A program made the translations under genes and the position numbers. Below the pieces are notes generated by a model. The model was not told the origin of the DNA and did no database searches. It saw only the letters and a program-made list of their open reading frames with translations. Shown piece by piece: positions 4,857 to 57,313 of a DNA stretch of 64,000 nucleotides (the stretch's first letter is position 1; each line of letters starts with the position of its first letter). The stretch is from Isoetes taiwanensis (taxonomy: Eukaryota > Streptophyta > Lycopodiopsida > Isoetales > Isoetaceae), in NCBI GenBank assembly GCA_021234155.1, contig JAJEKV010000019.1:2007200-2071199 (forward strand), written 5' to 3'.

Positions 4857-5195
4857 TCCGGTCGATTTGTTTAGATTGGAGTTGGAGTTGATCGCATCAT
4901 GAATGGTCCGGCCATAGCATTGTCGCATAAAGTCTGGGTAAGCGTTATCCAAATCCGCTTTTAGAACCCAAGTTGCGTCTTCCGTTGGTAAGTGCTTCCA
5001 TTTAACCAACTATTGCAATATTTGTGTCCCACGAGTTTGCTTATATGCACGATCAAGGAGAGCCTCAGGTACAATCTCCAATTAATCTTCCATCATCTCC
5101 AGAAGTGTTGGCGTATCAAGGATCTCTTCCAAATCGGGTGTATGCTTCTTGAGAAGGCTCACATGAAAGACTTTATGGACCATCATAGTTGATCA
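4857..5195 (-). pseudogene. Old gypsy element: integrase C-terminus and chromodomain remnant
   Basis: Reading leftward from 5195, the minus strand gives FHVSLLKKHTP, then LDTPTLLEMM, then a chromodomain-like stretch with LEIVPEALLDRAYKQTR and LVKWKHLP.EDATWVL. The same order occurs in the intact integrase of the young element at 18058-19380 and in the copy at 53167-53433. Stops interrupt the frame. It is the 3' end of pol of the old minus-strand chromovirus, separated from its integrase core by about 1.2 kb of foreign sequence. Confidence 0.8.
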
Positions 5196-6440
5196 TAAAA
5201 GGAGACATCCTTAATGTTCAGCTTCAAAATAATGTAGTTTTATCAAGTTATCTGGTTGCCTTCAGTTTATGTGTTGATGGGTAATATTTATGTAGGTGCG
5301 GGTATGTAGAAAGAAAGTGAACAAATCAAGGCCATGGGTTATGGGTAGGACCTCTAGAGCTCAGAAAATTCTAGGAAATAGTTGGGTCGACAATGCTGGA
5401 ATAATCTAGAATTTGTTGATGGGGACAAAGGCCATTTTTAGTGTAAAAAATACAAGAAAAGTTGTAGTCGAAAGCAGGATACAAGGCTGATTTAGGAGTC
5501 TCTTGCAGGACATATCTAACAATGAATTTTTACTATTTATGCATGTAAGAAACTGGCCATTTGTTGTGCAATTATCATTATAACACCAGGAACAACCATA
5601 AGAACAAATTCTAATTGTAATGATTCTCATAAAGCCATTGTTGGCATCTCAAAGACAAACAAGTGCCATCTGTAGTGATGCAAATCGGTTCCATGTATTT
5701 GAAAGCGGAATCTGCTCTTGTGGCGATTTATGGTAAGTTAGAGTATTTAGTGATTTTGTCTTGCCATCTTTAGTCCCAAATCCCAACTTTAAAGTTTTCT
5801 TGTTTGAATGTGTACTTTCGTAGTTTCTATTGTCTACTAGTTTGAAAAGAACCTGTTCTTGAAGGTTAGCTTTCACAAAGAAATGAGCATGGGCTGGTGA
5901 TTTTTTAATAAGACTCCGCACAAATTTTAACTTTCATTAACCCAAGTTTTGAAATAAATATTGTCATATATTATATTCTTGGTATGTGATCTCTTTTCTA
6001 CTTCAGAAAGAGTTTGAAATATGTACAACCTTCTTCCATTGTCTTTAGCTGGATCGTTTTTTCTATCGTGTAGCCTTTCCCTCCATTCTTCACTCGCTTC
6101 ATCCTTCTTTAGTGCTTTCTAGTACATGACGTTTGATCAGAAATGAAGCAAATTGTTTGGAGAGCAAGAGAAGTAAGATCATCTCTCAAATGAGATTTTC
6201 AAGTGTCAAACAAGGAATACACTTATTGTGCAGGGACGTGACTAACTACTAGAAAAGAAGAATTGACCCAATAAAAGGAAGAAATGGCTCAACCACAAAA
6301 GGGTTACAAGGAGAAAGCTATAAAATTATTCCCCAATCACGTCTTCTTAGGAACCCAACCTCATCCTCAACTGTAAGAACAATTCTATAATGCCGCTACT
6401 TTTTTATTTGAAGATGATTGACTTTAGTCTTGCCTACCAA
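5196..6440. other. About 1.2 kb of foreign sequence inside the old integrase
   Basis: Between the integrase core remnant on the right and the chromodomain remnant on the left, the expected DNA-binding region of integrase is absent. This AT-rich sequence without recognisable coding content takes its place. It may be an insertion with a compensating deletion. I could not identify terminal repeats or a target duplication. Confidence 0.5.
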
Positions 6441-7262
6441 ACCATTCATTTAGTTCCTTGTTTGAGCCTCATCCTTGATCTCTCTAAGTGTAGTAGGGAG
6501 TCAGAAGGTAACATTCCAGTTCATTAACTTCTTGTCTGATGGACTTATGTCACTTTTGTCGTGCCTGGGTTGGTATGAGTTCCAAGTGTCTTTCATCTTG
6601 GTGTTTTTATTTTCCTTCATGGACCTTAACCCTTTTTGGTACTGTCATACGCAAAATCCACCAAATGGATATAATCTGCCCATTGGGATTGCTTTTCTAG
6701 ACGTAGTTACCTATCATGTCTTCTATTATGTGATTGGTCCGCTCGGTTTGGCCATCTGTTTGCGAGCGGTAAGCTGCGCTCATGGCAAGCTTAGTTTGAA
6801 TAGTGCTAAAAAAACTTCCAAAATGCACTAACAAACTTAGGATCCTGGTCCAATATAATGGCACGGGGCATCTTATGAAGAGGAATTATCTCCCTTGTGA
6901 ACAACAAAGCGGTGTCTAATGCAGTATCTGTGGTTCGACATGCAAGAAATGCGCCATTTTGAAAAGTTTGTCGACCACAACCATCAATGCATCAAAGCCC
7001 CTTAGAGTGCATAGAAACCCCACCATGAAATCCATGGTAGTAACTTCCCATTTTGCATTAGGAACGTCTAAGGGCTGTAATTCCCCTGGAATACGCAATT
7101 GTTCTGCCTTTGTTTGTTGACATATCTGACACTGTTTAATGTATCTTGCAGTATGCCTCTTCATTCCTGGCCAAAAATAACTGGAGCAGATCTTAAAATA
7201 TGTCTTCATAAATCCCGCATGCCCCGCTATAGGATTGTTATATATGTCGTGGAGAATGAGCT
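6440..7262 (-). pseudogene. Old gypsy element: integrase core remnant
   Basis: The minus strand reads LILHD.YNNPIAGHAGFMKTYF, then YFWPGMK and CQICQQTKAEQLR. This is the HHCC zinc-binding module of Ty3/gypsy integrase. It is followed by the catalytic core with MDFMVGF, ALMVVVDKL and, further along, SQTDGQTERTN and EDM. The corresponding region of the young element is very similar but clearly not the same copy. Stops and frame changes break it after about 7209-6916. It catalysed insertion of the cDNA when intact and belongs to the element split by the 8517 insertion. Confidence 0.85.
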
Positions 7263-7354
7263 TGCGAACTCCTGATGTCTCGGGGACACATAACTTATTC
7301 TTATAATAAAGAAGATTACCTTCCTTCTTATAAAGGCAGAAAGCTTCCCTCTCC

Positions 7355-7900
7355 TTATCTGTTCATAAACTATGCCATTTTTCTTGAAATTCCGGATCTG
7401 TAGGAATAGTCCGCTCTATCTGCCTCCCAAACTCACTAGTGAGAGTGGAAATTGCATTACAATGCGTTCGTGTTACAATGGATGTCTGGACAGCGCGTCG
7501 GCAACAACATTCTGCTTGCCTGGCTTATAGAATACTTCAAAGTCATATTCCTCCAGAAATTCCATCCATCGTCGCTGTCTAAGATTGAGGTGGGTTTGTG
7601 TAAAAATGTATTGGAGACTTTGGTGATCTGTATCCAACTCCTCTATATATGCAAGGCATGCACGAGTGCTAGTAATTCCTGGTCATGCGTGGGGTATCGC
7701 TGCTCCGCATCATTCATCTTTCTAAAGTCATACGTGATTACCCTACCTTCTTGCATTAGTACTCTGCCTGTGGCGATTTTACTGGCGCTCTGGCAACCCA
7801 CTTATCTTTCTGAGGATCTGGCAAGGTGAGAATCGAAGTGGTTGTCAAGGCAGCCTTCAATGACTGAAATCCGGCCTGGACCTAACATTCTCACGTTTGG
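7355..7900 (-). pseudogene. Old gypsy element: RNase H remnant
   Basis: Broken minus-strand frames correspond to VLMQEGRVI.YDFRKMNDA, then the region before HCNAIST. This matches the RNase H portion and its downstream linker in the young element (17521-17850). Several frameshifts are present. It lies in the expected order between reverse transcriptase (right) and integrase (left) for a minus-strand Ty3/gypsy pol. Confidence 0.7.
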
Positions 7901-8516
7901 TAAGGTCTGTAAGAGGTGCTGCAAGTTTGGCAAAGTCCTTAACAAATTTGTGGTAATAGCCCAACAAGCCTAGAAATCTGCAGACCTCGGAGAGATTCGT
8001 TGGGACTGGTCAATCGTTTACTGCCTCAATCTTGGTTGGATCTGTTGCTATCCCTTCAGCAGATACAATGTGTCCCAAATAATCGACCTTGATGGTCGCA
8101 AATTTGCACTTGGAAAACTTGGCATAAAGTTGATAGCGTCTCAACTTCTGCAGAGCCAACCGAAGATGACGCTCATGGTCTTCTAAGGATATCATCGAAG
8201 AAAATGATGGCAAAATCATCAAGTTATTCATGGAAGACATCATTCATCAACCTCATGAATGTAGCAGGGGCATTAGTTAGCCCAAATGGCATAACAGTAA
8301 ACTCATAGTGCCCATAACATGTCCGAAAGGCAGATTTATAGATGTCATCCTCCTTAATTCTTATCTGATGATATCCTGAGCGAAGATTAATCTTTGTGAA
8401 ATACTTGGCCCCTTGCAATTGATCCATTAAGTCATCGGCACGCAGTAGAGCATACCAATTCTTGATTGTGTGCTCATTCAATTGTTTGTAATCAATGCAC
8501 ATTCGCAAGGTGCCAT
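7900..8516 (-). pseudogene. Old gypsy element: reverse transcriptase, main part
   Basis: Frames at 8508-8224 and 8243-8010 encode [54 protein letters not shown] and then [18 protein letters not shown]. These are fingers and palm blocks of Ty3/gypsy RT. The YVDD-type segment falls in the frame change near 8230. The reading continues exactly across the young insertion: the last codons here, ending at 8516, join the KKKDG codons at 21919-22041. The young element thus landed between KKKDG and TLRMC of this RT. Confidence 0.9.
8512..8516 (+). repeat. Target-site duplication GCCAT, left copy
   Basis: GCCAT directly precedes the 5' LTR start TGTGACGT and recurs directly after the 3' LTR end ACGTCACA at 21919-21923. 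Five bases is the usual duplication for Ty3/gypsy integration. Removing the element and one copy restores continuity of the interrupted RT frame. Confidence 0.95.
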
Positions 8517-8651
8517 TGTGACGTTCCAGGACAGTATACGGTCCCAGGACGTATACTGTACTGCCTCGTCACGCGTACACGCCACCCCGACTGACGTGTG
8601 CGCCAACGTGTAGCTAGGTTAGTACCCTAGGGGGCAACGTGCAAGGAGTGT

Positions 8652-8800
8652 GCATTTATTAATGTGCACATTCATTAATGTGCACATTCACTTAGGTGCA
8701 CATTTCCCCATATGGCCACTTGTTGCCAAGTGGGCCACACCCATGGGTGCAATTAATGTGCACATGTCCCAATGTACACATTCATTAATGTGCACACATT
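8652..8800 (+). repeat. GTGCACA subrepeat cluster in the LTR U3
   Basis: TTAATGTGCACATTC-type units recur about six times with small changes, each centred on the palindrome TGTGCACA. The same array is present in the 3' LTR at about 20393-20540. Tandem palindromic motifs upstream of the LTR TATA box fit an enhancer-like array; this is inferred from position only. Confidence 0.8.
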
Positions 8801-8909
8801 TCTATGTGGGCACATTTGGCCACCTAAGCCTTAAAGGCAAGTGGGCCCATTTCCAATTATCCCACATGCCAAAAGGGGATAATTGGAAACCCTAGCCAAC
8901 CCCCTTGTC

Positions 8910-8916
8910 TATATAG
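8910..8916 (+). promoter_or_regulatory. Candidate LTR TATA box
   Basis: TATATAG lies after the GTGCACA array and ahead of the putative R/U5 part of the LTR; the same motif is at 20648-20654 in the 3' LTR. The transcription start cannot be read from sequence alone. Confidence 0.5.
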
Positions 8917-10181
8917 GGTGGGAAACCCTAACTTGCCCATTTTCGTTTCTAGGGCTTTAGAACTCTGTTTTGGCTGCCTCAACAGCCAAAACCGCCTCCC
9001 AGACTCTGCCTGGGAGGATTGCACCCTTAGTTTCCCTTGATTCGAGCGTTTCAGCAGGATGGTCGAGCTCAGGTCAGGAGGAGCCCCTCAAGGATCAGGT
9101 ATTGAGCCAATTAGATAGTCTAAACCCTATTTCAGTCATAGAATCAGTAGGTTTAGCCTCTTAGATTGCCCATAGCAGCTCTCTAGATCTCTAGATAGCA
9201 GATTCTAACTAAAGAACCTAACTCTATGTTGTAGATTAGATATAGTTCTTTAGTTCTTTTGTGATGTATATGGATGATGTATCTCTATGAACTCCTTGTA
9301 TTGGGAAGGGGGGTAGAGACCTAAAGCTTTGTAGTTGATGCTCCTAGTGTAGCCTCTCTAGCACACTGTAGATTCGGCCTGTGCACAAGAGCCACACCGG
9401 GTTGTGGGTGAAGGGGCCAGACTGGCTAAGAAGGAGGTTCATGTCCTGACTCTTGAACGATCCCTCTGGTGTGTAAAGCCTACCAGGGATCATTGTGACT
9501 AGGTCTAATGGCTTGCCACTGCGTGTGGGCAAGGCATGGGCTCGACACCCGTGAAGTGGTGTTCACTTTCCAGTGGGTTCAGTCGAATAAGGGCAGTGGC
9601 CCTCTAGTCACCTTGAGTCAGCATGTAGATCTCTGGAGGGAGTGATCCCTACCTGCCCCATCGGAACTGGGAAGATGAGCCCAGGAATAGCCCTTTTGGC
9701 TATGCATCCGGCGGGCTACAGTCAGGTCCCGACACTTTTCAGCCCACTCTGCAAAGTGTGCACAGGAGGGGCGGATGGAGTGGACAACCCTATGCCATGT
9801 TCATATGCCAGCCAAATCCATTGCCATGAATTCTGTCTGCAATGAACTCTGGAGACCCAAGCCGTCAGTCATCCCCTTGAGTCTGAGCCTTGGGTAGGAT
9901 TCCCCGTATGTATTGTGCTCACCTTGTTTATGCAGATGTGATGGACCACCCTTCGAGGTGGATATGTGCTTATGTTATGTACTGACATGTATGTTTACGC
10001 TTCCGCAGCTAGGTAGGCCCTGAGGGAGACGGGGTAAAATGACCCCTTCACTCTTCCCACTGGAACCCGTCATGGTTGCAGTGTCATGTGGAGGGCCCTG
10101 TATCGGCACGGAGCTGGTATGGGGGATGAACTCCTGTTTGTATACGGTGAGGGCACCGTATGCGAGTAGGGGACGTCACAG

Positions 10182-10193
10182 TGGTATCAGAGC
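10182..10193 (+). other. Primer-binding site for initiator Met-tRNA
   Basis: TGGTATCAGAGC lies one base after the 5' LTR and complements the 3' end of plant initiator methionine tRNA, the usual primer for plant Ty3/gypsy minus-strand DNA synthesis. It also fixes the orientation of the element as plus. Confidence 0.95.
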
Positions 10194-10385
10194 TATGTTC
10201 TTGGAGACCAAGAGCAAAGCACTGGCCATGTTCCTAGTAGACTAACTTGATAGGATCCTTACACCTCGAAAAATGGGAAATTTTTTTTCTCATTTTTTTA
10301 GTTTTGCTAAGCTAGCAACAGTTAAAATAAATGAAAACATAAAAATATTAAGAATTGGTGAGCCAACATCCAAAAAGTAGGGTGG

Positions 10386-10450
10386 TCTCACACGTCGCGC
10401 CAGGACAGGAAATGACATTTTCATTTTTGCCGGGCGCAACGCGGTGAGAC
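10386..10450 (+). repeat. 66-nt palindrome, copy 1 (module A)
   Basis: Outer arms TCTCACACGTCGCGCC and GGGCGCAACGCGGTGAGAC pair across an inner ATGACATTTTCATT hairpin. This is the most diverged of four copies. Copy 2 starts exactly 199 bp downstream. Confidence 0.85.
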
Positions 10451-10584
10451 ATTCAAATTTAGACACCAAAAAGTTGTAAACTACAGTGAAATAACTTGAT
10501 AATTCTAATTTTAAGCTAAGAATCAGTAGAATTAGCATGTTACATGTTCAAAAAGTACAAAATTTAGTAGTGGGCCCCACCATG

Positions 10585-10650
10585 TCTCACACGTCGCGCC
10601 AGGACAGGAAATGACTTTCTCATTTTCGGGCTGGGCGCAACGTGTGAGAC
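10585..10650 (+). repeat. 66-nt palindrome, copy 2 (module A)
   Basis: TCTCACACGT at the left pairs perfectly with ACGTGTGAGA at the right. GCGCC pairs with GGCGC inside that, and the centre is a TGACTTTCTCA loop-stem. It lies about 76 bp upstream of the module A TATA box, a position compatible with a promoter element, a transcript hairpin or a replication-type structure. Confidence 0.9.
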
Positions 10651-10725
10651 CTTGCTTAATTAGGTGTTTGAGATGCTTTAGGCAACCCAAAAAGGTAGTT
10701 TAAAAGTTGACCTAAAAATTGGCCC

Positions 10726-10734
10726 TATAAATAG
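10726..10734 (+). promoter_or_regulatory. TATA box of accessory module A
   Basis: TATAAATAG stands about 100 bp ahead of the histone-like start codon at 10832. The leader after it ends AGGCGATCTTC, a word also found in the leader of module B at about 12831, so the two modules appear to share a duplicated promoter-leader. Internal TATA-driven units inside an LTR element, on the sense strand, are not standard for chromoviruses. Confidence 0.65.
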
Positions 10735-10831
10735 ACCTAGACCCCTCCCATTTTCGCGCTCTCCCTTAGAACTTTGCTCGTACTTGCCAAGGCGATCTTC
10801 TGGCGCTTAGCTCCGATCGACAAACTACCAA

Positions 10832-12172
10832 ATGATGGCCCGCACCAAAACGTACCCGCAAGGAAGCCTAGACAAAGCGGATCCTCCGGCGCCCGGTACC
10901 GGCCTCTTCGAGAGAGTCTTCGAGAACGCCTTCTCCATGAAGGCTTAATCTTCTTCGAAAGCGAGGAAGCTGTGGATCGGACGGAGCGACCGCATTGCAA
11001 GCTTGTAGAGGATGACCGACCGGACATCATGCACCAAATCCTTGAGGAGATCGCACAGGAGGAGGGAAGAAGCGAGGGGAGCAAAGAGGAGCAGATAGGG
11101 CGATCCAACAGCCCGGGGAGCAACAGGGTGAGGACACCCACCCACGTGAGGATAGCGGGGAGCAAGCGGACCAATCAACGTTTTCAGAGCAACCCCAGGC
11201 TGAGATCCACCTGCAGGAAGAGCAAGGAAGAGAAGAGCAGCAGCAGCCAACACTCAGCCCCGCAGAAGAAGCCGATCTTGCACGCTTCATCAGCAAGTAT
11301 GAAGCCAAAGAGCGCCGCCGGGAGCAGAGGACGAAGAGTCGGGAAGATGACTCGACCCCTGCCAGCCAGCCCAAAAAGAGGAAGGCCAAAGCCATTAAGG
11401 CGGGCAAGAGGAAGGTCGTGAAGATCGGCAAGTTTAGCCGGTAGGTCCCGCGGATCAACTAACCAACAGCGAAAGCGCACCCGCCCCTCACCGACGACTT
11501 CGGACGAGGATTACGCCCCCAATCCAGAGGGGCGAAGCTCTTCAAAACCCCTACCGTGGAGAAGGAGGTACCCGGAGGTGGCACCCGAGGAAGATCATTC
11601 CGAAGCAGCATCGAAGCCCCCACCTTTTCCAACGTGGGATAGGGTAAAAGCCCCGTGACCACAACGGGAGGCGTACGTGATAGACCCGGTCAAGGTCTAT
11701 CAGAAGAAGATCAAGGAGCACAACGCGTACATGGTGAAGTGGGAGGCATATAATGCCTACTATCGTGAACACAGTGGTAAGAACTATCGGCGGACATCCG
11801 GACAAGAAGTCGACCTTGAAGCCACCGCCACCCGGGCCCAAGCCTCCCCGAGCACCAGGTAAGAAGCGGAGCAAGAAGAAGAAGTTGGAGGACAGAGCCC
11901 TCAAGGAGATCCGCCACTTCCAGAAGAGTTACGGACTCTTGATCCCCCGTGCGCCGTTCCAACGCTTGGTTCGTGAAGTCATACAGGAATACAACACGGA
12001 TATGCGAGTAACCGACGAAATGTTCTTTGTGCCTACAGGGGAGGCGTGAGAGGCAAAAATAGTGCAAACATTTTGAAGATTCAACGGCTACCGCTGCAAA
12101 GGTGCCAAGAGGGTTACCCTCATGAGGCAGGATATGTATCTTGCCAGGCACATCAAGGGAGAACGGCCTTGA
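10832..12172 (+). pseudogene. Accessory gene A: histone H3-family (centromeric-H3-like) protein, broken
   Basis: The first codons read MMARTKTYPQG, which is the histone H3 N-terminus (ARTK). A long insert follows: an acidic stretch (FFESEEAVDRTE...ILEEIAQEEG), a Gln/Glu-rich stretch and a basic, nuclear-signal-like segment (KKRKAKAIKAGKRK, near 11370-11420). The histone fold lies at about 11880-12172. It has [11 protein letters not shown] (alpha-N), [14 protein letters not shown] (alpha-1), then EA.EAKIVQTF (alpha-2) and AKRVTLMRQDMYLARHIKGER (loop 2 and alpha-3). From family knowledge, [10 protein letters not shown], LLIPxAPF and RVTLMR.D are typical of plant CENH3, while PFQRLVRE and ARxIxGER are typical of canonical H3. 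Frames change at least three times. In-frame stops lie at 10946, near 11657, at 12047 (where H3 often has Cys) and near 12080. Undetected introns could explain some of the breaks. Confidence 0.75.
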
Positions 12173-12319
12173 AACCGTTTTTGTAAATAATGAACATTTT
12201 TGCTAATATAAAGAATTTTTGTGTAAATAAAGTGTCAGATCTTGTTTAAATAAGTTAAGATATCGATTCCTAGCTTTTGTTTTAGGTAAATTGGAGCTTT
12301 GAGCAAAATTGAGATGATG
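12173..12319 (+). other. Module A 3' end and module spacer
   Basis: AT-rich sequence after the histone-like stop, with TTTGTAAATAATG and AATAAAG words that could serve as a polyadenylation region. The first palindrome of module B begins directly after it. No coding content is seen. Confidence 0.4.
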
Positions 12320-12385
12320 TCTCACACGTCGCGCCAGGACAGAAAATGAGATTCTCATTTTCGGGCTGGGCGCAACGTGTGAGAC
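12320..12385 (+). repeat. 66-nt palindrome, copy 3 (module B)
   Basis: Nearly perfect palindrome: TCTCACACGT/ACGTGTGAGA outside, GCGCC/GGCGC in the middle, GAAAATGAGA/TTCTCATTTTC at the centre. It starts 1934 bp after copy 1, and copy 4 follows at 199 bp, the same spacing as in module A. Confidence 0.95.
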
Positions 12386-12518
12386 CATGCCCAAAAATGC
12401 CCAAAACAGCTCCAAATCGACCAAATAAGGGGTCAATTTGGCCTAACTCGATGAGTTTAGTGGAATTACAGCCTTAGATCACTTAAATTGAGTAAGCCTA
12501 GCCCAATTAGGACCCATG

Positions 12519-12584
12519 TCTCACACGTCGTGCCAGGACAGAAAATGAGATTCTCAAAATCGGTCTGGGCGCAACGTGTGAGAC
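12519..12584 (+). repeat. 66-nt palindrome, copy 4 (module B)
   Basis: Same structure as copy 3, with a GTCGTGCC variant on the left and TTCTCAAAATCGGTC in the centre, so the central stem is shorter while the outer ten pairs are kept. Conservation of the outer stem across all but the first copy suggests it matters more than the centre. Confidence 0.9.
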
Positions 12585-12772
12585 CTCGTACCATTTTCTT
12601 CACCAAATGATCTCCAAATTGTTGCAGTAGGTTCAGTAGTTCAGTAGTTGTTCTTAGCATGCTCAAACCCTAGAAATAGTCTTCAAACTTGCAATTGCAT
12701 CCCTTAATAGATCAGAATCACCTGATCTCAGTAAAATCTAGGTCATCCAAAAATTAGGGTTTCCCCCAATTC

Positions 12773-12780
12773 TATAAATA
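12773..12780 (+). promoter_or_regulatory. TATA box of accessory module B
   Basis: TATAAATA lies 122 bp before the ATG at 12895 and about 190 bp after palindrome copy 4. Like module A, the leader contains AGGCGATCTTC and a GAGGCGCTT word. The arrangement palindrome-199 bp-palindrome-TATA-leader-ATG is the same in both modules. Confidence 0.6.
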
Positions 12781-12894
12781 AGTTCCCCAATTCTCATTTA
12801 GCACCCTGCAAATTTGCTCTCCACTGCTTAGGCGATCTTCCAGCTCCTTGAGGCGCTTCTGCATCCGTCTGTTACTCCCTTCCTTGCTAGATCA

Positions 12895-14408
12895 ATGGCC
12901 ACTGCCGACGGGGGCGATGGTGCGGCGCCCGGTGCCTATGTCTTAGAGGGCGGATGTCAACGACATCTTCCAAGTCTTTGGGAAAGAAATTGATATCCAA
13001 GCTACACTAAATGCAACCCCAGCATATAGGCAAGTGCTAGCAGAGTTTCAAGCCAGGGTAGGACCCTCCCTTATTCAGGTCCCTCCTTGCATAGGATATT
13101 TCGTTCCCCGGCCATCCCTTCAAGCAGCCTTGGGTGATGTCCCCAACATCGCCAAGTATTTAACCAACAAGGCAGAGGGCTGCGACTACATGGTCCCCGG
13201 CAAACAACAGACCAAGTACTTCTCTTACACCGCCCTAGCCATCTTCTTATCCCACCGCGGCCGAAAACCAAATGGGGCAACCTCTATCTTTTCGATGGAG
13301 GTGGACCCCATAGCAGCCCAAGCAGAAGAGCAGATGCTTCTGCAGTATCAGCAAGAGCAAGAAGCAAGGGAAGAAGGAGAGGAGTCAGATGACGAGGAAT
13401 ACACGGAGCTCGACTCAAATGAAGAACGGGCGCCAAGCAGAGCAGAGCTGATCAACTTCGGGCTTGAGGCAAAACATCGAGTTGCTCCCCACTTGGGCTA
13501 GGCATCCCAAGCCTAGCCCCTATCATCATCAAGCGGAGAGGAGTATCTACTCCTGGCGACATCGAGAACCTTCGAATGCGAGGAGAGGAGCTCAAATTGA
13601 ACGAACTGCTCCACCAACTGCGGCAGACCGACATGGGACGACTTCATCGTCCGGGGGGAGCCTCGGACTTTCGCTTCAGGTCGAGGAGAAGGCGACACCT
13701 ACGGGAAGCGACACCCGATATCAAGCCCTCAAAGAAAGCATCGGGCAAATGATGGACGGGGGGCTGCCAACGAGGGAGGAGGAGTTCCTCGCCCTCCAAG
13801 AACAGATGGGGATCCGCGGGAAAACCACGAGCATCTTAATGCCCAGGCCTTCGACACCACCCCCGGCAAGAGGAGGAGGAATCGACCTCAGGAGAGTCGA
13901 CTCCACAATTGAAGACTACCGGGAGCTAACGGAGATAGAGGTCGACGAGTACGCCGGGCGGCACAGAGCAGGAGGCCAAACAAGTGGAGAATCATCCGCG
14001 ACGCACAACGACAGGTCGCTCAGGTACTACTTGCCGCTGCTGCTGGATGGGAGGATAGCGGTAATACACCGCAAGTTCAGTCCCAGAGGGGAGGAAGGGG
14101 TGTTCATGCTGATTGCACTCTCGGGCTTCGGCAGGCATGCTCGCATAGCGGCAAACGTTGACTATGCTGTTCTGGTCAAGAGAGCAATGGCACTCGACCT
14201 CTTCGACTTCGCCATACCCCATCGACGTCAGGCGAGATTGGCGGTGACTGCGGCCCTTACATCCGACCGCAGAGTGGAAGACCTGGTGAGAGCCTTACAG
14301 GGAGGCTCGTCGGCAAGCATCATCAGGAACTTGGGTCACTCGGTAGGGACGGCCCAAGTTGAGAAGTTTCTTGAAGACAACCCGTCTTACCGGCGATTTC
14401 AAGATTAG
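12895..14408 (+). pseudogene. Accessory gene B: unrecognised protein, broken
   Basis: The likely start is MATADGGDGAAPG at 12895. After a frame change the coding continues as DVNDIFQVFGKEIDI, then through 13034-13501 with a globular part (PPCIGYFVPRPSLQAALGDVP...YFSYTALAIFLSHRGRKP) and an acidic patch (EEGEESDDEEYTE). A further frame, 13464-14408, carries PTREEEFLALQEQMG, a SLRYYLPLLLDGRIAVIHRK block and helical segments near the end (NVDYAVLVKRAMALDLFDF, then RRVEDLVRALQGG). Composition and length suggest a real protein of about 480 residues, now split by two or three frameshifts or spliced. I recognise no domain and find no histone fold. Its module structure matches that of the histone-like gene, so the two probably act together. 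Confidence 0.55.
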
Positions 14409-14580
14409 TTAGACTCTTGATCCCGGAAACTTTTTGTACTAAAATATTATATGATATATGAATATAAATTCTGTTGCACTTTAAATGTTTTGTTGATGTA
14501 TTTTTGCCCCACAATTATACCAACAAACATAAACAATGCAAGAGAACAAAGGAAACTAACCATATAGCTATGAATCACTT
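14409..14580 (+). other. Spacer between accessory region and gag, with possible splice acceptor
   Basis: AT-rich spacer. The gag frame is open only from 14560 and has no ATG at its beginning. The word TTGTGTATGCAG ending at 14590 would suit a splice acceptor, so gag may be translated from a spliced transcript or from the internal ATG at 14686. Which one cannot be decided from sequence. Confidence 0.35.
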
Positions 14581-16500
14581 GTGTATGCAGCGAGAGGCCT
14601 AAGCGCAGGGGAACAACAACTGCGAGAACTTATAGATGAGCAGACCCCGCCCAGACCACCCCCGGCAAGGAACCTATTTGAAGATATGGAACCCATGACC
14701 CCAGAGGAGGAGATATCCCAGATGAGGACGGACCTTGAGCAGATAAAGGCCTTGCTGTCTGCGCAAGCAAGAACGGGTTCGGTGGGCAATGCTCAATTGC
14801 CACAAGCACCAGTTCGGAAAACAGGAAGAGACAAGAAGAGGAGCAAGAGAAGGAGATCCCCGAGCTCGGATTCCTCCGACTCAAGCTCAGACTCAGACTC
14901 CGAGGAAGAGGAAGAGCAGGCCCAGGACCGAACAGATGCAAGGCAAAGGAACACTGAAGAGGGAAGGCAGAGGAACACCCCAGATGGACGACAAAGAGAC
15001 ACCAGGGCCTCTGACTACCAGAAGAAGGTAGATTCCGCGCTGGGCAATGTATGGAAGGCCCGCAAACTGGAACAGTTCTCGGGGGAGAACATGTCAGGAT
15101 TAGAAGCAGAGGCATGGCTGGACGAAATGAGTGAGTACGGCAATGCTTATGGCATGAAGGATAAAGACAAAGGAAGAGTGGCAACAGCCAACTTGAAAGG
15201 AGCCGCACGGATTTGGTGGAAGGGTTATGCAAAGGCACATGGCTTAAGCAGGGATGCTTGTAAGTTCAGGAAGTTTGCTAAAGCCTTCAAGCGCCATTAC
15301 GTCCCAAGGGAACATAAGTCCAGTATGATGCAGCAGTTCTATAGGTTGCAGCAAGGCAACAAATCAGTCCAGAAATATACAGAGGAATTCATGAGGCTAA
15401 GGCTGTATGTGCCAAAGTTGGGAGAGAAGCATGCAGTTGAAAGTTATATTGAGGGGCTGAATGAGGAGATCCGCAAGCTTGTGAGGGCAATAAACCCTAA
15501 GACAGTATCAGAAGCAGAGTCCAAGGCTATAAGCTTGCAGGGGACGGGACCTCAGAATAGCGGGCAGAAGCAGCAGTATTTCCAGGATAAAGGCAAGGCG
15601 ACAGGAAGCTATAGCCCTAGGGCAGCCAGTCCAGGTCCAGCTAGAGCCCCACATGGTGGCAACCAGGGGAAACAGCAGGAGAAGAAGCAGGTGTCCTTCA
15701 AGGACAAGCAGGAGGGGTCAAACTACTCCAAAGCAGTGCGATCCTTTTTGCAGGCGATGCCCAAGGAAAAGAGACAGGAGTGCATAGAAAAGCAGCTTTG
15801 CTTCAGGTGCTTCCAGCCAGGCCATAGGACAGCAAACTGCCCCTACGTCATGAGTGCAGCTCTAGCGGAGTTGGGAGATTGGGACGCTCTGTCTGACGAC
15901 GACGGCGAGGAAGGCCGCGACTACATTCAGGGTGAGTGCCATATCTTTGCCGCAATAGATACAGAGCAAGCAGAGAGCCAGTATAAAGTAATTTCCACAG
16001 TAGGGAAGGCCAAGACCAAGTCCTTCATAGTCTTGATAGACTCAGGAAGTAGCCATAACTTTGCATCCCCCAGAATGGTTCAGATGTTGAAGTTGAAACC
16101 ACTAAAGTCAAAGCCAAGGCCCGTTGTCTTAGCAAGTGGTGCAGTAAGGCAGACGGCAGGCAAGAGAATTAACTTCGACATCGACTTGCCAGGGATTAAT
16201 ATCCAGATGGGGGCAGAAGTAATGGGCATTGGCAAGTACGACTTGATCATAGGAATGGAGTACCTTGGACCAGCAGGGGCCATTATTGATTGTGGAAAGC
16301 AGAAGGTGACCTTCCCAACGCCCGACGGCAAGATCATTGAGATAACAGGTAAGGAAGTTGTTCCCATCATGCATTGTATGTCTTCTAAACGGATGTTCAA
16401 GTGCATCAAGAGTGAGCAAGTGGCATACATCTTCAAGCTTGAGATTAGTGAGCCGGAATCGGAGGGAAGCAAAGAAGACAAGGTGCTCAGCAAGTTCTGA
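14581..16500 (+). CDS. gag: gag and aspartic protease of the young chromovirus
   Basis: One long frame of about 639 codons. The N-terminal part is charged and partly disordered ([17 protein letters not shown] near residues 95-112). The capsid-like part follows, with [29 protein letters not shown] and [15 protein letters not shown] zinc knuckle [14 protein letters not shown] (CX2CX4HX4C) lies near residue 412. The retroviral-type aspartic protease follows, with the catalytic motif [10 protein letters not shown] near residue 483 and a later [10 protein letters not shown]. The frame starts without ATG; the first in-frame ATG is at 14686. It ends TGA at 16500, and the RT continues in the -1 frame, where an open frame overlaps the stop. 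This is either a -1 frameshift signal or a one-base mutation; plant chromoviruses usually have one continuous gag-pol frame. Confidence 0.93.
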
Positions 16501-17954
16501 AGCAAATAGCTAAGCTGATCACGGAGTTCCATGATCTCTTTCCAGATGAGATCAAGCAGCTCCCTTCTTATAGGGGAGTCGAGTGCGAGATAGCACTCGA
16601 ACCGGGAACAAAGCCAACAAGCAAGGCTCCATATAGGATGACAACACAAGAGTTGTCGGAGCTAAAGAAGCAGTTGCAAGAGCTGCTTGACCTAGGTTTC
16701 ATTAGACCTAGTGTTTCGCCATTTGGAGTGCCCATTCTCTTCGTCAAGAAGAAGGATGGCAGTTTAAGGATGTGCATAGACTATAGGCAGCTGAATAAGC
16801 ACACTATTAAGAACAAATATGCGCTCCCAAGATCAGATGACTTGATGGATCAGCTACAAGGAGCAAGAATCTTCTCCAAAATCGACTTAAGGTCAGGTTA
16901 TCATCAGATCAGGATAAAGGAAGAAGATATCCATAAGACCGCCTTCAGAACGCGGTATGGGCATTATGAGTTCACGGTAATGCCTTTCGGCTTATCGAAT
17001 GCCCCCGTGACGTTCATGAGGCTCATGAACGACATCTTCAGGGAGTTTTTAGACACCTTTGTGATTGTTTTCTTTGATGACATTTTGGTGTATAGCAGAT
17101 CCCTTGAAGAGCACGTACAACACTTGAGAAGAGTGCTGGAGAAGTTGAAGAGGCACCAGTTGTACGCCAAGTTGTCGAAGTGCCACTTCACAACAGAGAA
17201 GGTGGAGTATCTCGGTCATGTGATCTCAGCAGAAGGCATCTCGACGGATCCTGCAAAGATTGAAGCCGTCATTCAGTGGCCGGCGCCGAAGAATGTGCAT
17301 GAAGTCAGAAGCTTTCTCGGCCTAGCAGGGTACTACAGGAAGTTCGTGAAGAACTTTGCTAAGATAGCGGCCCCGTTAACGGACTTGACGAGGGCGGAGA
17401 AAGTGAAAGATTGGGCGGAACATTGGCACAAGAAAGCCCAAGCAGGGTTTGAGTTGTTGAAGGAAGCTTTAACAACCGCCCCAGTCTTAACCCTGCCAGA
17501 CCCGGAGAAAGACAAGCTTGTAGCAACAGACGCAAGTAAGATAGCTACAGGTGCAGTGCTTATGCAAGAAGAGCGTGTGGTAGCGTATGATTCCAGGAAG
17601 ATGAACGATGCAGTTGTCAGGGCATTAAGAATTTGGAGGCACTACCTGTTGGGAAGGAAGTTCCAGTTGGATACAGACCACCAGAGCCTCCAATATGTAT
17701 TCACGCAACCACACCTCAACCTGAGGCAGAGAAGGTGGATGGAGTTCCTTGAAGAGTATGACTTTGACATAGTCTACAAGCGAGGGAAGCTCAATGTGGT
17801 AGCGGATGCGCTTTCAAGGCATCCCCTGACAACTAGAGTGCATTGCAACGCAATTTCGACCCTCTCCAGCGACTTTGGTAAGAAGATTGAAGATTCCTTG
17901 CCAACGGATGTGGATTTCAAGGAAGTATGGGCAAGCCTCTCTAAAGGAGGCTAG
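16500..17954 (+). CDS. pol: Reverse transcriptase and RNase H of the young chromovirus
   Basis: The frame is open upstream of the first ATG (16638), beginning [21 protein letters not shown] blocks are [76 protein letters not shown] and the catalytic [10 protein letters not shown], followed by [10 protein letters not shown]. Note FFDD where YVDD or FIDD is usual. RNase H follows with [32 protein letters not shown] and [10 protein letters not shown], ending at [11 protein letters not shown]. The RNase H segment lacks the usual ...ERNYPTHDKELLA stretch after RKMNDA, so about ten residues seem deleted. It ends at TAG 17952-17954, ahead of the integrase in another frame. Confidence 0.95.
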
Positions 17955-19380
17955 AGCGGATAAGGAGCGGGGAAGCCTTTAAACATTATAAGAAGGAAGG
18001 CAACCTGTTGTACCATAAGAACAAGTTTGTGCGTGCCCAATCATCGGTGTAAGGAAATTGATCCTCCACGACACGCACAACAGCCCAATAGCTGGCCATG
18101 CGGGATTCATGAAAACATATTTCAAAGTGCGCAGCAGCTATTATTGGCCAGGAATGAAGAAGCAGGTAGCTCGCTACATCAAGGAATGCCAGCTATGTCA
18201 GCAGACGAAGGCAGAGCAGCTTCGAATTCTAGGAGCATTAGAGCCATTAGCGGTGCCAAACGCTAAGTGGGAGGCGATTAGCATGGATTTCATCACAGGA
18301 CTCCCAAGGACCGTAAGAGGGAAGGATGCTTTGATGGTAGTAGTCGACAAGTTGTCGAAAATGGCACATTTTGTGCCTTGCAGGACCACAGATACGGCTA
18401 TGGACACAGCGAAGCTCTTCACCAAAGAGATCTTCAGGCTTCATGGCATGCCAAGGGAGATTATCTCCGACAGGGATCCGAAGTTCATGAGCGCCTTTTG
18501 GCAAGACCTCTTTGCGACAATCCAGACGAAGCTATCCATGAGCACGGCGTATCATCCTCAGACGGATGGCCAGACGGAGCGGACCAACAGGATTTTAGAG
18601 GACATGCTACGAAACTATGTCTGGAATAAGCAAGGTATGTGGGAAGAATTTATTCACTTGGTGGAGTTTGCCTATAATAGCACCAAGCAGGAATCATCCC
18701 AAATGTCGCCATTTATGATCAATTACGGCTATCAGTGCCTAACTCCAGACACTTGGCACAACCCCGTGTCAAAAGTGGAAGTTTCGCAGCAGATGTTGGC
18801 CGATATGCAGCAGCTTGTGGAAGAAGTTCGAGGGTATCTGCTGGCAGCAAGAAGTCGTCAAAAGAGCATCGCCGACAAGCATCGAACAGTAAGAGAGTTC
18901 AAAGTTGGAGATGATGTTTGGCTCAAGATCAAGGTGAAGCAGGCGAAGCTCAGAATCGGGAACTGCAAGAAGCTTGCTCCAAGGTGGGCTGGACCTTTCA
19001 GAATAGTCAAGAGAGTAGGTAATCAATCCTACAAGTTAGACTTGCCAGCACACCTAAAGATTCATAAGGTCTTCCACGTGAGTTTGTTGAAGAAGCATAC
19101 TCCAAATCCAGACGAAGTCTTGGACACTCCAACGTTGTTGGAAATGATGGAGGAGGAGTTGGAGATAGTCCCAGAATTGATTCTTGATAAAGCTTTCAAG
19201 AAAACGAGGAGGTCAGAATTCCTCCAGTATTTGGTCAAGTGGAAACACTTACCAGTGGAAGACGCGACGTGGGTACTTAAGAAAGATTTAGTAAAGCAGT
19301 ACCCACAGTTTATGGAGCAATGGGACGGCAAGGTCATCTCCGAAGAAATCGGCTCAGGCATGTCGATATGTGTAGATTAA
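17955..19380 (+). CDS. pol: Integrase with chromodomain of the young chromovirus
   Basis: The open part is 18058-19380. Upstream, 17975-18050 encodes FKHYKKEGNLLYHKNKFVRA in another frame, so the N-terminus is frameshifted near 18048. The HHCC module is LHDTHNSPIAGHAG...CQLCQQTK. The DDE core has MDFITGLPRTVRGKDALMV (first Asp), ISDRDPKFMSAFW (second Asp) and TDGQTERTNRILEDML (Glu). The DNA-binding region has VGDDVWLKIK and LAPRWAGPFRIVKRVG, then HKVFHVSLLKKHTP. The C-terminal chromodomain (LILDKAFKKTRRSEF, YLVKWKHLPVEDATWVL) keeps the central Trp of the aromatic cage but lacks the usual aromatics at the two other positions, like group II chromodomains. Such domains direct chromovirus integration to particular chromatin. 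Confidence 0.95.
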
Positions 19381-20237
19381 GTCTATGTGTAGTTAAGATT
19401 AATCTACGCATGCAACCTATGCTAGGTATGGGTCGCATGCGTGTTACCGATGATGAGACCACTACGGTGATCTCTAGGGCGTGGTGTAATGTCAATGTAG
19501 GCATGACCCGCGTTTTCGCTTTGAAAGTGGAAGGTAGATTAGAAAGTCTACTCACGTCCCACGGAAGTAGGCGACCTCGAGAGAAAGGAGGTCATGAAGG
19601 AATGCATCGATAGGAAAAGCACCTCTAGCCCCATATATGCTTTGATAGGAGGAATCGGGCCTTCCGCCCCCACATCTGGGGAAGGACCTATCCTCCCGCC
19701 ATTTGGGCAACTAGGGTGTAGGCATGGCGGCATATAGGCATATAGGTCTTTGTCTCCACGGCCATAATGGAAGATTCACCCTCTTCCCAGGAGATTAGCC
19801 ATGCATCCATGTAGATAGGTGGGGTGGTCACCATATAACCAAAATTTTATTAATAATTAAATGATACTAACGTAGTGTCGACTTGCAGGCCAATAGAGCG
19901 CTCCGGAGGGCAAGGAGGTCGAGCTACGAAGACTTGCAACACAAATTTTGTTGCAATGTGTTGCAAGGAATGAAGAGGACCTCGAACGTTAATCTTAATT
20001 TTGATAAACTTAATTGTCATGTTAAGTGAATTATTGAGTAACCTGTTTTAATGATGTATGAATTGATAAGTTATTTCATAATATAATGGCGTGATAATCT
20101 CCTAAAAATATTACCTTTAAGGTAATCTTAATAAATGTGTGTAAGTATTATAGTAGTTATCTCATGTATCAGGTTGATTGCAGGTTAGGATGATTCCAAG
20201 GTGGGGAGACCCACGATGCTGCGGACAGCATCATTTC
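19381..20237 (+). other. 3' untranslated internal region of the young chromovirus
   Basis: No coding content is recognisable between the integrase stop and the polypurine tract. A second polypurine-like word, AAGGTGGGGAGA, occurs at about 20198-20209, upstream of the one that borders the LTR, within a local duplication of about 40 bp. Confidence 0.6.
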
Positions 20238-20250
20238 AAGGTGGGGAGAA
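20238..20250 (+). other. Polypurine tract of the young chromovirus
   Basis: AAGGTGGGGAGAA directly precedes the 3' LTR start TGTGACGT and would prime plus-strand DNA synthesis. Its position supports the LTR boundary chosen. Confidence 0.85.
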
Positions 20251-21918
20251 TGTGACGTTCGGGGCGGTATACGGTCCGGGGCGATTATCTTGATCTTGCC
20301 ACGTCATGGCATTACCGCCACCTCGACCGGCGTGTGTGCTTAGCGTGTAGCTAGGTTAGTACCCTAGGGGGCAACGTGCAAGGAGTGTGCATTTATTAAT
20401 GTGCACATTCATTAATGTGCACATTCACTTAGGTGCACATTTCCCCATATGGCCACTTGTTGCCAAGTGGGCCACACCCATGGGTGCAATTAATGTGCAC
20501 ATGTCCCAATGTACACATTCATTAATGTGCACACATTTCTATGTGGGCACATTTGGCCACCTAAGCCTTAAAGGCAAGTGGGCCCATTTCCAATTATCCC
20601 ACATGCCAAAAGGGGATAATTGGAAACCCCTAGCCAACCCCCTTGTCTATATAGGGTGGGAAACCCTAACTTGCCCATTTTCGTTTCTAGGGCTTTAGAA
20701 CTCTGTTTTGGCTGCCTCAGCGACCAAAAACCGCCCCGAACTTCTGCACGGGAGAATTGCACCCTTAGTTTCCCTTGATTCGAGTGTTTCAGCAGGATGG
20801 TCGAGCTCAGGTTAGGAGGAGCCCCTCAAGGATCAGGTATTGAGCCAATTAGATAGTCTAAACCCTATTTCAGTCATAGAATCAAAGTGGGTTTAGCCTC
20901 TTAGATTGCCCATAGCGACTCTCTAGATCTCTAGATAGCGATTCTAACTAAAGAACCTAACTCTATGTTGTAGATTAGATATAGTTCTTTAGTTCTTTTG
21001 TGATGTATATGGATGATGTATCTCTATGAACTCCTTGTATTGGGAAGGGGGGTAGAGACCTAAAGCTTTGTAGTTGATGCTCCTAGTGTAGCCTCTCTAG
21101 CACACTGTAGATTCGGCCTGTGCACAAGAGCCACACCGGGTTGTGGGTGAAGGGGGCGACCGGCTAAGAAGGAGGTTCATGTCCCGACTCTTGAGCGATC
21201 CCTCGGTGTGTAAAGCCTACCGAGGGGATCATTGTGACTAGGTCTAATGGCTTGCCAGCGTGTGGGCAAGGCATGGGCTCGACAACCGTGAAGTGGTGTT
21301 CCCTTTCCGGTGGGTTCGGTCGAATAAGGGCGGTGGCCCTCTAGTCACCTTGAGTCGGCATGTAGATCTCACGGAGGGAGTGATCCCTACCCGCCCCATC
21401 GGGCGGGAAGATGAGCCCGGGAATAGCCCTTTTGGCTATGCATCCGGTGGGGCTCTGATCAGTCCCCGACACTTTTCAGCCCACTCGCAAAGTGTGCAAT
21501 GAGGGGGGCGGATGGAGTGGACAACCCTATGCCATGTTCATATGCCGCCCAAATCCATTGCCATGAATGCATGCGCAATGAACTCACGGAGACCCAAACC
21601 CGTCGATCATCCCCTTGAGTCTGAGCCTTGGGTAGGATTCCCCGTATGTATCGTGCTCACCTTGTTTATGCAGATGTGATGGACCACCCTTCGAGGTGGA
21701 TATGTGCTTATGTTATGTAATGACATGTATGTTTACGCTTCCGCAGCTAGGTAGGCCCTGAGGGAGACGGGGTAAAATGACCCCTTCACTCTTCCCACTG
21801 GAACCCGTCATGATTGCAGTGTCATGTGGAGGGCCCTGTATCGGCACGGAGCTGGTATGGGGGATGAACTCCTGTTTGTATACGGTGAGGGCACCGTATG
21901 CGAGTAGGGGACGTCACA
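20251..21918 (+). repeat. 3' LTR of the young chromovirus (1668 bp)
   Basis: It starts TGTGACGTTCGGGG and ends GGGGACGTCACA, collinear with 8517-10180. The 60 bp after the first 20 are strongly diverged. Elsewhere the differences cluster at sites reading CG, CGG or CCG here and CAG or CTG in the 5' copy. The open frames at 20387-20698 and 21260-21502 are LTR sequence, not genes. Confidence 0.95.
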
Positions 21919-21923
21919 GCCAT
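21919..21923 (+). repeat. Target-site duplication GCCAT, right copy
   Basis: Matches the left copy at 8512-8516 and is part of the codons for Asp-Gly of the interrupted RT on the minus strand. Confidence 0.95.
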
Positions 21924-22041
21924 CCTTTTTCTTCACAAACAAAATAGGGGCAATAAAAGGTGATACACTTGGCCTAATGAATCCCAACTTAAGAAGCTCT
22001 TGCAACTGCTTCTTAAGCTCTACCAATTCTGGTGTACTCAT
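21919..22041 (-). pseudogene. Old gypsy element: N-terminal part of reverse transcriptase
   Basis: The minus strand reads [20 protein letters not shown], then FIRPSVSPF and [11 protein letters not shown]. This is the conserved start of Ty3/gypsy RT, and its next residues ([12 protein letters not shown]) are found at 8516-8480, beyond the young insertion. The frame is open up to the insertion point. Confidence 0.93.
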
Positions 22042-22239
22042 TCAGTGCAGAGCCTTATTCATTTGGCATGGAATGTGATTTCACATTCCACGCCTCAGAA
22101 AGGTGGCAAGCTTTGAATCTCATCCGGAAAAAGGCCGTGGAATTCTCAAAGTACGACAGCTATTTCCCTAGGCAAGCTCTCAATAATTTCTTCATGTTTG
22201 GACTTGGCCTCTACTGACACAAGTCTAACAATGCAAGCA

Positions 22240-22515
22240 ACCTAATACCTCTTGATGGCTTTATCCAACTGAAGCAATGAAATACATTGCATAATTGAGA
22301 TAACTGATTTACCTGCTATGGTTATTCGAGCTCCATTAGCTGTGTTAAAGGTGACTTCTCGCTTTTCGCAATCAAGCCAAGAACTCTATATCCACAATAA
22401 GATCATATCGGCCGATGTTCATAATCTTGGCTCCTAGAGCAACGGGTGCTCCAGGCAGCTGAATGTTCAAGTTGATACGGCCGTGAGTGTAACGCATGGC
22501 TCCACTAGCCAGTCT
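22240..22515 (-). pseudogene. Old gypsy element: aspartic protease remnant
   Basis: The minus strand gives RLASGAMRYTHGRINLNIQL, then PGAPVALGAKIMNIGRYDLI and VDIEFL. This aligns in order with [20 protein letters not shown]...[14 protein letters not shown] in the young protease. Stops and frameshifts follow. The active-site LIDSGSS part is not visible, because an LTR-like fragment begins at about 22541 just where it should be. Confidence 0.75.
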
Positions 22516-22537
22516 AATTGGATGTGGCTATGATTTC

Positions 22538-22612
22538 AAAGGACGCTCCCAGAATCTATACGACGCTCTTATGGGCTCTTATCGTATAAATACGGGGAAT
22601 TCCCCTCCCGTT
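22538..22612 (-). repeat. LTR-edge fragment inside the old protease region
   Basis: GACGCTCCCAGAATCTATAC at about 22542, followed by CGTATAAATACGGGGAATTC, matches the outer edge of the family LTR seen at 23551, 24241 and 51206. Only about 75 bp remain. It indicates a further insertion or a rearrangement within the old element. Confidence 0.7.
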
Positions 22613-23550: not shown

Positions 23551-24240
23551 GACGCTCCCAGAATCTATACGATGCTCCCATCGTGTAAATATGGGGAATT
23601 CCCCTACATGGCAATTACATCACCATGGAAAGGCCCTCCGTCTAACTCGAACCACTTGGGATGGCCAAGTGTCCGGGTGAGGACACGGAGGTGTCATTCA
23701 TCCCACATCCTCTATAGGAGTCGTATACAGCGGAAGTGTACATACATGTTAACACATAGCAATCATACACAAATAATATACCACCACGAAGGGTGGTCCA
23801 TCCATCATCATATAAATAGCAAATACAAGTACAAGATACATAAACAATATACCATAAATAAGCGCTCGACCCCAGGCTCAGACTCCGGAGGGTCGACTGA
23901 CGGTCAAGGCCTCAAGATAATAGCAGACAGAGATATAACATGGCATTGGCTGGGATAGAATAATGGCTAGGGTAGTCCACTCCATCCGCCCCTCTTGTGC
24001 ACACTTTGCAGATAGGCTAAACATGCTATGGCGTGATTGTAGCCTTCCGGAGATGCAATCTCATGGAGTCACCCTATGAGACTACTCCGAATTACATCTC
24101 CCTGGTCCGATGACGCAGGTCAAGGAGGCGTCCCTCCCTGGGCATGACGAATCCCTGGGTGTGCTGCATCTGACAGTAGGCGGACAAAGTAGCCATTATT
24201 TTGGCGGGCGGTATCATTCCCCAAAAATACAGGTCGTTAA
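23551..24240 (-). repeat. Truncated 5' LTR of the old gypsy element
   Basis: It begins GACGCTCCCAGAATCTATAC (plus strand) and follows the LTR at 24241 closely for about 600 bp. It then departs after CCCTGGGTGTGCT into about 80 bp of other sequence and runs into the next, complete LTR copy. It carries the primer-binding site on its inner side. Confidence 0.8.
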
Positions 24241-35781: not shown

Positions 35782-40031
<4,250 letters not shown>

Positions 40032-56600: not shown

Positions 56601-57313
56601 TTCAAGAATTTGAGGATTATGGTCCGAGACTACTTGTGCCAAATAATTAAGCCTCCATAACCGTGGACATATATCACAAAGCACACTATTTGCATACATT
56701 CGATCATAACGAGCCTGTGACAATCCTGGGCCAACCCAATTATTAGTCCACGTAAAAGATGAATCTCCATCAACTTCCATAAACCCATGTTGAAAAAGTA
56801 ACTTCTGCCACTGCTGCCGTTCAAAGCCGCTTACAATCTGTCCACCACCTAATCTGTCTTGTGCTGATTCGACCATATTGAAATCCCCTACTAAAAGCAA
56901 GCCACATTTTCTCCCCATTTTGGTATTTTATTACGTAAAGTAGCCCATAAAGTTGCTCTTTTTCTAGGAATATTAGATGCATATACATTAATGATACCAC
57001 ATTCTTGAAGTCCTTGTTGCTTCCATTTAATGATTGTCCACCTTCCAAATTTATCTTTTGCTGTAAATGTGACATGAACATCCATACTCCAGGCTATCAT
57101 TGTACCACCCCGAGCCTTGCCTGAAGTACTTATTATAGCAGAAGTTTGCTTCCCAAACAAATTCATCATTGGAACAACCCTGCCTCTATCACATTTATGC
57201 TCTTGAATACATAAAATATCTGGATTAATGTGTTTAATTAAATTAGCCAACCTCTGCCGTTTTTGAGGAGATGAACGTGCTCCTCTCACATTCCAAGACA
57301 TGATCTTAAGCAT
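53644..57313 (-). pseudogene. LINE ORF2: endonuclease, reverse transcriptase, zinc-binding end
   Basis: It starts MLKIMSWNVRGARSSPQKR, the beginning of the APE-type endonuclease. This continues with ILCIQEHKCDRG, LLVGDFNMVESAQDR and VVSDHNPQIL (the conserved His). The RT from about 56341 to 54483 has DKCPGMDGIPVEFFKRYW, NTGLISLIPKVKEP, DWRPITLLSTIYKIIAK, LKLDFAKAYDSVKW, GIRQGCPLA and the catalytic INQFADDTFLLV. The end, 54440-53644, has PPKVNALIWQVIYHSLRV and CVSGALKHW. The start codon overlaps the ORF1 stop by eight bases, so ORF2 was probably translated by reinitiation. Frame changes occur near 56900, 56450, 55330 and 54460. Confidence 0.93.

Follow-up and report, generated by a model that had tools for sequence, protein, structure and literature searches.

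A histone H3-family gene inside a Ty3/gypsy chromovirus-type LTR retrotransposon of Isoetes taiwanensis

The window, a 64,000-nucleotide stretch of DNA, contains an LTR retrotransposon flanked by a 5 bp TSD, GCCAT, at 8512-8516 and 21919-21923 (Table 1). Its primer-binding site, TGGTATCAGAGC, is presumably of the initiator-Met type. The coding regions follow the order gag, protease, reverse transcriptase (RT), RNase H and integrase, and together with the chromodomain at the integrase C-terminus, the LTRs and the TSD they identify the element as a Ty3/gypsy chromovirus. The element has inserted into the RT gene of a related chromovirus on the minus strand, and parts of that interrupted RT lie on both sides of it. 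This older chromovirus adjoins a repeat region (23551-24861) containing a tandem duplication. Elsewhere in the window, an intronless, open gene of 407 codons for an ornithine/diaminopimelate-type decarboxylase occupies 32429-33652 (+; E 1.5e-63), and a frame at 38767-39420 (+) carries a glutathione S-transferase N-terminal domain after about 105 residues without a match. A DUF4283 protein at 57306-58295 (-), upstream of endonuclease- and RT-like frames (54483-56918, -; kind assigned by eye), is perhaps the ORF1 of a LINE. The primer site, the chromodomain type and the DUF4283 protein all point to a plant host.

Table 1. Features of the LTR retrotransposon and of the chromovirus that it interrupts (window positions).
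Feature	Position	Strand	Evidence or remark
Older related chromovirus, split by the LTR retrotransposon	4872-8541 and 21877-22545	-	
LTR retrotransposon	8517-21918	+	LTR pair by blastn; ends and TSD from sequence
5' LTR	8517-10180	+	TG...CA ends; 93.9% to 3' LTR (blastn)
Primer-binding site TGGTATCAGAGC	10182-10193	+	sequence
Palindrome 1, unit 1	10385-10451	+	RNA fold z -6.6
Palindrome 2, unit 1	10584-10650	+	z -7.0
TATAAATA box, unit 1	10726-10733	+	sequence
Leader, unit 1	10770-10800	+	74% to unit 2 leader over 31 nt
H3/CENH3-like gene, broken frame (MARTK tail, charged insert, C-terminal histone fold)	10835-12172	+	
Open piece, alpha-N to start of alpha-2	11753-12049	+	PF00125 E 2.8e-11; PDB H3 E 7.9e-12
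Whole histone-fold region	11897-12169	+	one frame through two TGA
AATAAA downstream of the histone gene, resembling a poly(A) signal	12226-12231	+	sequence
Palindrome 1, unit 2	12319-12385	+	z -8.8
Palindrome 2, unit 2	12518-12584	+	z -7.6
TATAAATA box, unit 2	12773-12780	+	sequence
Leader, unit 2	12810-12840	+	
Second accessory gene, about 500 codons, unknown family	12895-14408	+	two frame breaks (codon model)
Gag and protease	14581-16500	+	PF03732 5.8e-18; PF08284 6.7e-9
Reverse transcriptase and RNase H	16638-17954	+	PF00078 1.9e-41; PF17917 3.4e-22
Integrase with C-terminal chromodomain	18058-19380	+	PF17921 4.2e-19; PF00665 2e-9; PF00385 3.3e-10
Chromodomain of integrase	19168-19326	+	PF00385 3.3e-10
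3' LTR	20251-21918	+	blastn; ends by sequence

About 4.4 kb of additional sequence, organized as two consecutive sense units, separates the primer site from gag. Each unit consists, in order, of a pair of palindromes, the box TATAAATA, a leader containing AGGCGATCTTC and then an ATG (10835 in unit 1, 12895 in unit 2). The four palindromes are closely similar, measure 67-68 bp and are spaced by exactly 199 bp within each pair; four such matches are observed against 0.00 from shuffles, and all four fold as RNA far better than shuffled versions (z -6.6 to -8.8). The leader and start regions of the two units are 73-74% alike over 31-33 nt. Judged by this arrangement, the palindromes, TATA box and leader may form a putative internal promoter module that the units share. 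Unit 1 is completed by the histone gene and then AATAAA at 12226. In unit 2, the C-terminal part of the second gene is open at 13740-14405; its structure model (mean pLDDT 34.8) is too poor for a fold search, and neither of the gene's two open pieces has a Pfam match above cut-off. No Rfam match is found in the 64-kb window.

The gene of unit 1 is certainly a member of the H3 family, and the initial annotation had placed it correctly: on the sense strand, inside the LTR element and upstream of gag. That annotation had also read a histone fold running in order from alpha-N to alpha-3 and proposed a profile search as its check; the open piece at 11753-12049 scores 44.2 bits against Pfam Histone (PF00125), above the curated cut-off of 26.4, and its best PDB match is an H3 chain. 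When the piece is read on to 12169, with X at the two TGA stops (12047-12049 and 12074-12076), the best PDB match improves to 3e-18 and the fold is covered to its end. The fold thus passes through alpha-N, alpha-1, alpha-2 and alpha-3 in a single frame with both TGA inside, and an H3-like C-terminus is reached at 12169. Taken alone, the end piece 12061-12171 has no Pfam family match, and neither it nor 11753-12049 matches NCBIfam; the 215-residue open piece at 10774-11421 is likewise without a Pfam match. A chance histone match is ruled out by shuffling, as the real piece reaches 57.3 bits with a profile of H3 proteins from ENA and the best of 2000 letter-shuffled versions reaches 6.7 bits.

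At the opposite end of the gene, the ARTK start that had been claimed follows directly on the ATG at 10835. This is the sole MARTK start among the 2813 ATGs of the window (both strands), of which only two are followed by at least three of the four ARTK residues. The tail continues with ARKPR in a different frame from MARTK. Between tail and fold is the long charged insert already described, of roughly 330 residues, and the predicted product comprises about 440 residues (446 in the query). All the motifs named earlier, including LLIPxAPF, RVTLMRxD, PFQRLVRE and xIxGER, are present. At DNA-contact or core positions, 12 of 23 residues are identical, including R69, R72, R83, K115, R116 and D123, and four more are Lys/Arg swaps; R63 is replaced by P, as in CENH3, and H113 and R129 are altered. 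The alpha-2 helix is poorly conserved, either degraded or mis-read, and the alignment contains no loop-1 insertion. The predicted structure of the histone piece is poor (mean pLDDT 51.6), with four helices in H3 order.

The identity of the histone within the family is addressed by 11 diagnostic columns at which Arabidopsis and rice CENH3, the only two CENH3 used, agree with each other and both differ from H3.1. The window gene has the CENH3 residue at six of the 11 and the H3 residue at none; six or more CENH3 residues would arise by chance (1/19 per column) with p 8e-6. One of the six, F54, also occurs in part of a set of unnamed ENA proteins described below. Over the aligned fold columns, 14 match a CENH3 alone, six H3.1 alone, 38 both and 39 neither, where two CENH3 sequences have two chances to match against one for H3.1. 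Overall similarity points the other way: Arabidopsis H3.1 scores 71 bits (49% identity), above all three plant CENH3 (rice 67 bits and 46%, maize 52, Arabidopsis 51; identity 41-46%) and above human CENP-A (46 bits). A tree was built from 41 rows, 36 of them different, which include 19 of the 113 ENA rows and 13 rows from a search with a CENH3 alignment. In it, the end branch of the window gene is 2.18 long, and p-AU is 0.50 for grouping with CENH3, 0.51 with plant CENH3 and 0.24 with the ENA set. The tree gives the gene no place, and the leaning towards centromeric H3 stands on the diagnostic columns but not on the tree or overall similarity. The 10-residue motif previously taken as a CENH3 mark is set aside as not specific, since it also occurs, in an otherwise H3-like fold, in some of the ENA proteins. 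A CENH3 origin is nevertheless favoured by the diagnostic residues. With plant CENH3 the gene shares the ARTK start, the 10-residue motif, LLIPxAPF, RVTLMRxD and the six diagnostic residues; it differs in a C-terminus of xIKGERP instead of the GGRRPW type, in an alpha-1 with QRLVRE as in H3, in the insert after the tail and in its retrotransposon carrier. With canonical H3 it shares the fold in full order, an 11-residue end and the 49% identity to Arabidopsis H3.1, and differs from it in lacking every diagnostic H3 residue, in the long insert and in the degraded alpha-2.

A search with the whole gene returns 169 protein matches; among the 120 of these listed, none covers more than 24% of the query. 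Removal of seven named histones or histone-bearing proteins from the 120 leaves 113 unnamed ENA proteins (P0003-P0121, at least 113) of 297-453 residues with an H3 fold. Among 20 aligned rows, the N-terminus is MARTKQTARK in 16 and MARTKQTAWK in one, with a later start in three; the H3 fold forms the C-terminal end in all 20, and most carry ALK(E/D)IRHFQK in it. In the 17 full-length rows the insert measures about 260-345 residues; it contains a separate conserved domain and acidic-basic stretches. These proteins share with the window gene the tail-insert-fold layout, the long charged insert, the C-terminal position of the H3 fold, a similar length and the 10-residue motif. They also give the highest pairwise scores (P0003, 81 bits and 50%; four others 75-77, one 72), P0003 standing above Arabidopsis H3.1 and rice CENH3. 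The size of five of their clusters among the matches listed (P0013, P0051, P0071, P0072 and P0087), 33 to 46 members each, suggests a multi-copy gene. The window gene and the ENA proteins could accordingly be two branches of one broad class of mobile H3 genes with this layout, distinct from host CENH3, and the CENH3-like residues of the window gene would then have arisen by convergence. We consider this unlikely. The inserts show no similarity (hhalign probability 0.1%), and the conserved domain of the ENA insert is absent from the window gene. At the diagnostic columns, evaluated for 69 of the 113 rows after 44 were dropped for other C-termini, the ENA folds carry a mean of 7.1 H3 residues and a mean of 1.2 CENH3 residues (largest 4), opposite to the pattern of the window gene. 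An IMG/VR scan, with 53 pattern matches, contains no relative. The ENA set hints at a second family of mobile elements with histone genes and does not count as evidence for the window element.

The 98-residue open piece gives one protein match among five candidates, from Thelazia callipaeda. The CENH3-alignment search gives 7993 matches, the best 120 of which are largely long H3-type proteins; two of its matches, P0125 and P0237, each hold two H3 copies. A GTDB scan yields eight loci matching the fold region, and the two examined (L002 and L007) are ordinary H3 in MAG contigs.

Run against all six frames of the window, the ENA H3 profile detects the histone fold only once, and the older, interrupted chromovirus is without it. 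The absence of the fold from this related element would suit a separate insertion, in which a host CENH3-like gene or pseudogene and its neighbour entered one copy of the element and form no part of the family. Such an origin is highly improbable given the sense orientation, the position between primer site and gag, and the two consecutive units with one promoter module; moreover, no insertion-flanking repeats surround the histone unit among the repeats listed. We describe the locus as an LTR retrotransposon with an integrase chromodomain that carries an H3-family gene, a description supported by the features above.

The gene is not the single open frame that the initial annotation implied. 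The best codon-model path has six breaks in 1.33 kb of histone gene, two in 1.51 kb of the second unit and three in 4.69 kb of gag-pol; the density in the histone gene exceeds that in gag-pol (binomial p 0.005), in a comparison that favours gag-pol, on which the model was trained. The weight of these breaks depends on the state of the sequence. The LTRs diverge by K2P 0.053, about 5% and perhaps inflated, and their differences are abnormal: 36 of 54 events touch CAG/CTG in the 5' LTR (17% expected) and 35 of 54 touch CG in the 3' LTR (16% expected), each with p about 1e-15, where the expected rates, computed for one-column events, are slightly low and control pairs are handled likewise. The differences often come with indels of 1-2 bases, yet identical runs of 283 and 216 bp occur. 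The two LTRs contain 58 and 25 CAG/CTG. The three control repeat pairs give six comparisons, in five of which CAG/CTG lies close to the expected value (sixth, p 0.04). CG is raised in some (17/55 vs 15%; 29/146 vs 11%), an excess of the kind expected from normal decay at CG and smaller than that in the LTRs; a fourth control, a short tandem pair, is without CAG/CTG. The observed/expected ratio of CAG/CTG is 0.69 in 10182-12300 against 1.07-1.55 in gag-pol, and a value of 0.78 in the host decarboxylase gene indicates that part of the low range is ordinary.

Long-read sequencing makes errors at methylated sites, and local base-calling error is the likeliest source of the LTR differences, a reading that rests partly on this general behaviour. 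In the literature searched on base-calling errors, nothing on methylated CHG sites was found, neither for nor against. Because of the abnormal differences, the damage to the gene and the age of the element are both uncertain. Breakage of the histone gene may in part be sequencing error, so the breaks are treated as provisional. Dating from LTR identity is set aside, since the differences cluster at CAG/CTG in the 5' LTR and CG in the 3' LTR, and with it any judgement of the element as young.

The higher break density in the histone gene is what would be expected of passive transduction, in which a host histone cDNA or gene is dead, decaying cargo without a role. Such events have ample precedent, and many LTR elements of plants contain pieces of host genes. 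Mobile elements of plants, LTR elements included, commonly capture genes (PMC7264820, PMC13317346). Maize has 400 transposon-captured genes, rice 672 and sorghum 1343, the last mainly from LTR elements (PMC7264820). Dead cargo is a real possibility, if not the one to be expected. Fresh cargo should resemble its source, whereas the gene is about 50% identical to H3 and CENH3 (at most 51% over the whole fold to any other histone row of the tree) and the LTRs are about 95% identical to each other; the divergence of the histone would thus predate the insertion, with the proviso that the source gene itself may have been diverged. The retention of CENH3-specific residues and the promoter module common to the histone unit and the second gene also speak against it.

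Weighing these points, we see an evenly balanced case for the reading that a chromovirus-type element captured a host H3-family gene, most likely of CENH3 type, and kept it as an accessory gene with a putative internal promoter and an antisilencing role. In its favour are a histone match far above chance and the gene's sense orientation within LTRs and TSD; against it, the element is known from a single copy. According to this scheme, a Ty3/gypsy chromovirus-type element would have acquired the host gene, most likely the CENH3-type one, and retained it between primer site and gag. As the two sense units share a promoter module, the histone probably has its own mRNA, made from the internal promoter and separate from the LTR-driven gag-pol RNA. 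The predicted product is an H3 variant some 440 residues long, its ARTK tail roughly 330 residues from the fold; in the nucleus it would have host H4 as its partner. There, it may coat the element's own new DNA, or it may act as bait for the host proteins that read or write the H3 tail; either action would lessen the silencing of new copies. The sequence itself establishes the fold, the tail motif, the location in the element and the two-unit layout, and a CENH3 source, expression, action in the nucleus and a gain for the element are inferences.

The initial annotation had the element reading chromatin with its integrase chromodomain, a view weakened by the residues of that domain; the marking or mimicking of target chromatin that it suggested would be a hypothetical role. 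The domain is indeed present (PF00385), but at integrase residues 371-423 two of the three aromatic-cage positions are not aromatic in a by-eye alignment to HP1. By this alignment, it lacks the methyl-lysine cage of type I, as is usual for type II chromodomains, which have no full aromatic cage and for which no partner has been identified (PMC6317226). Known chemistry consequently gives no support for a link from the chromodomain to the H3 tail that the element itself encodes.

Histones encoded by selfish elements are known from viruses, namely the H4 of bracoviruses and the histones of Marseillevirus and Medusavirus. These differ from the window element in belonging to DNA viruses and not to an LTR element. 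Closer in kind are the orchid Gypsy AlkB elements, in which a Gypsy-type element carries a host-derived domain possibly directed against host silencing (PMC9289625), and the LTR elements with additional ORFs, which also hold extra host-derived genes (PMC7264820). One survey took in 121 angiosperm genomes and 25,565 consensus sequences and reports 15 domains uncommon in LTR elements; its section on these domains does not name a histone, and the word 'histone' appears twice in the main text, neither time as such a domain (PMC9289625). In the literature searched on histones in mobile elements, a scope that most subscription papers and all preprints lie outside, no retrotransposon with a histone gene was found. 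Host-gene capture by plant LTR elements is already known, and H3-type cargo appears to be new to the literature searched.

Seen more broadly, there might exist a plant retrotransposon lineage that encodes a CENH3-like histone and a second protein from an internal promoter to control its own chromatin, and the ENA set might reflect repeated uptake of H3 by selfish elements, with the tail split from the fold each time. We regard this as rather unlikely. Should further copies of the element share the gene, it would be unusual cargo, and the finding would rank well higher if several copies keep the histone frame. Retrotransposon silencing acts through histone H3. In conclusion, if the reading as a captured accessory gene is true, an H3-type protein of its own would be the element's direct counter-move at the level of silencing, and cargo of the CENH3 type would bear on the frequent link between retrotransposons and centromeres.
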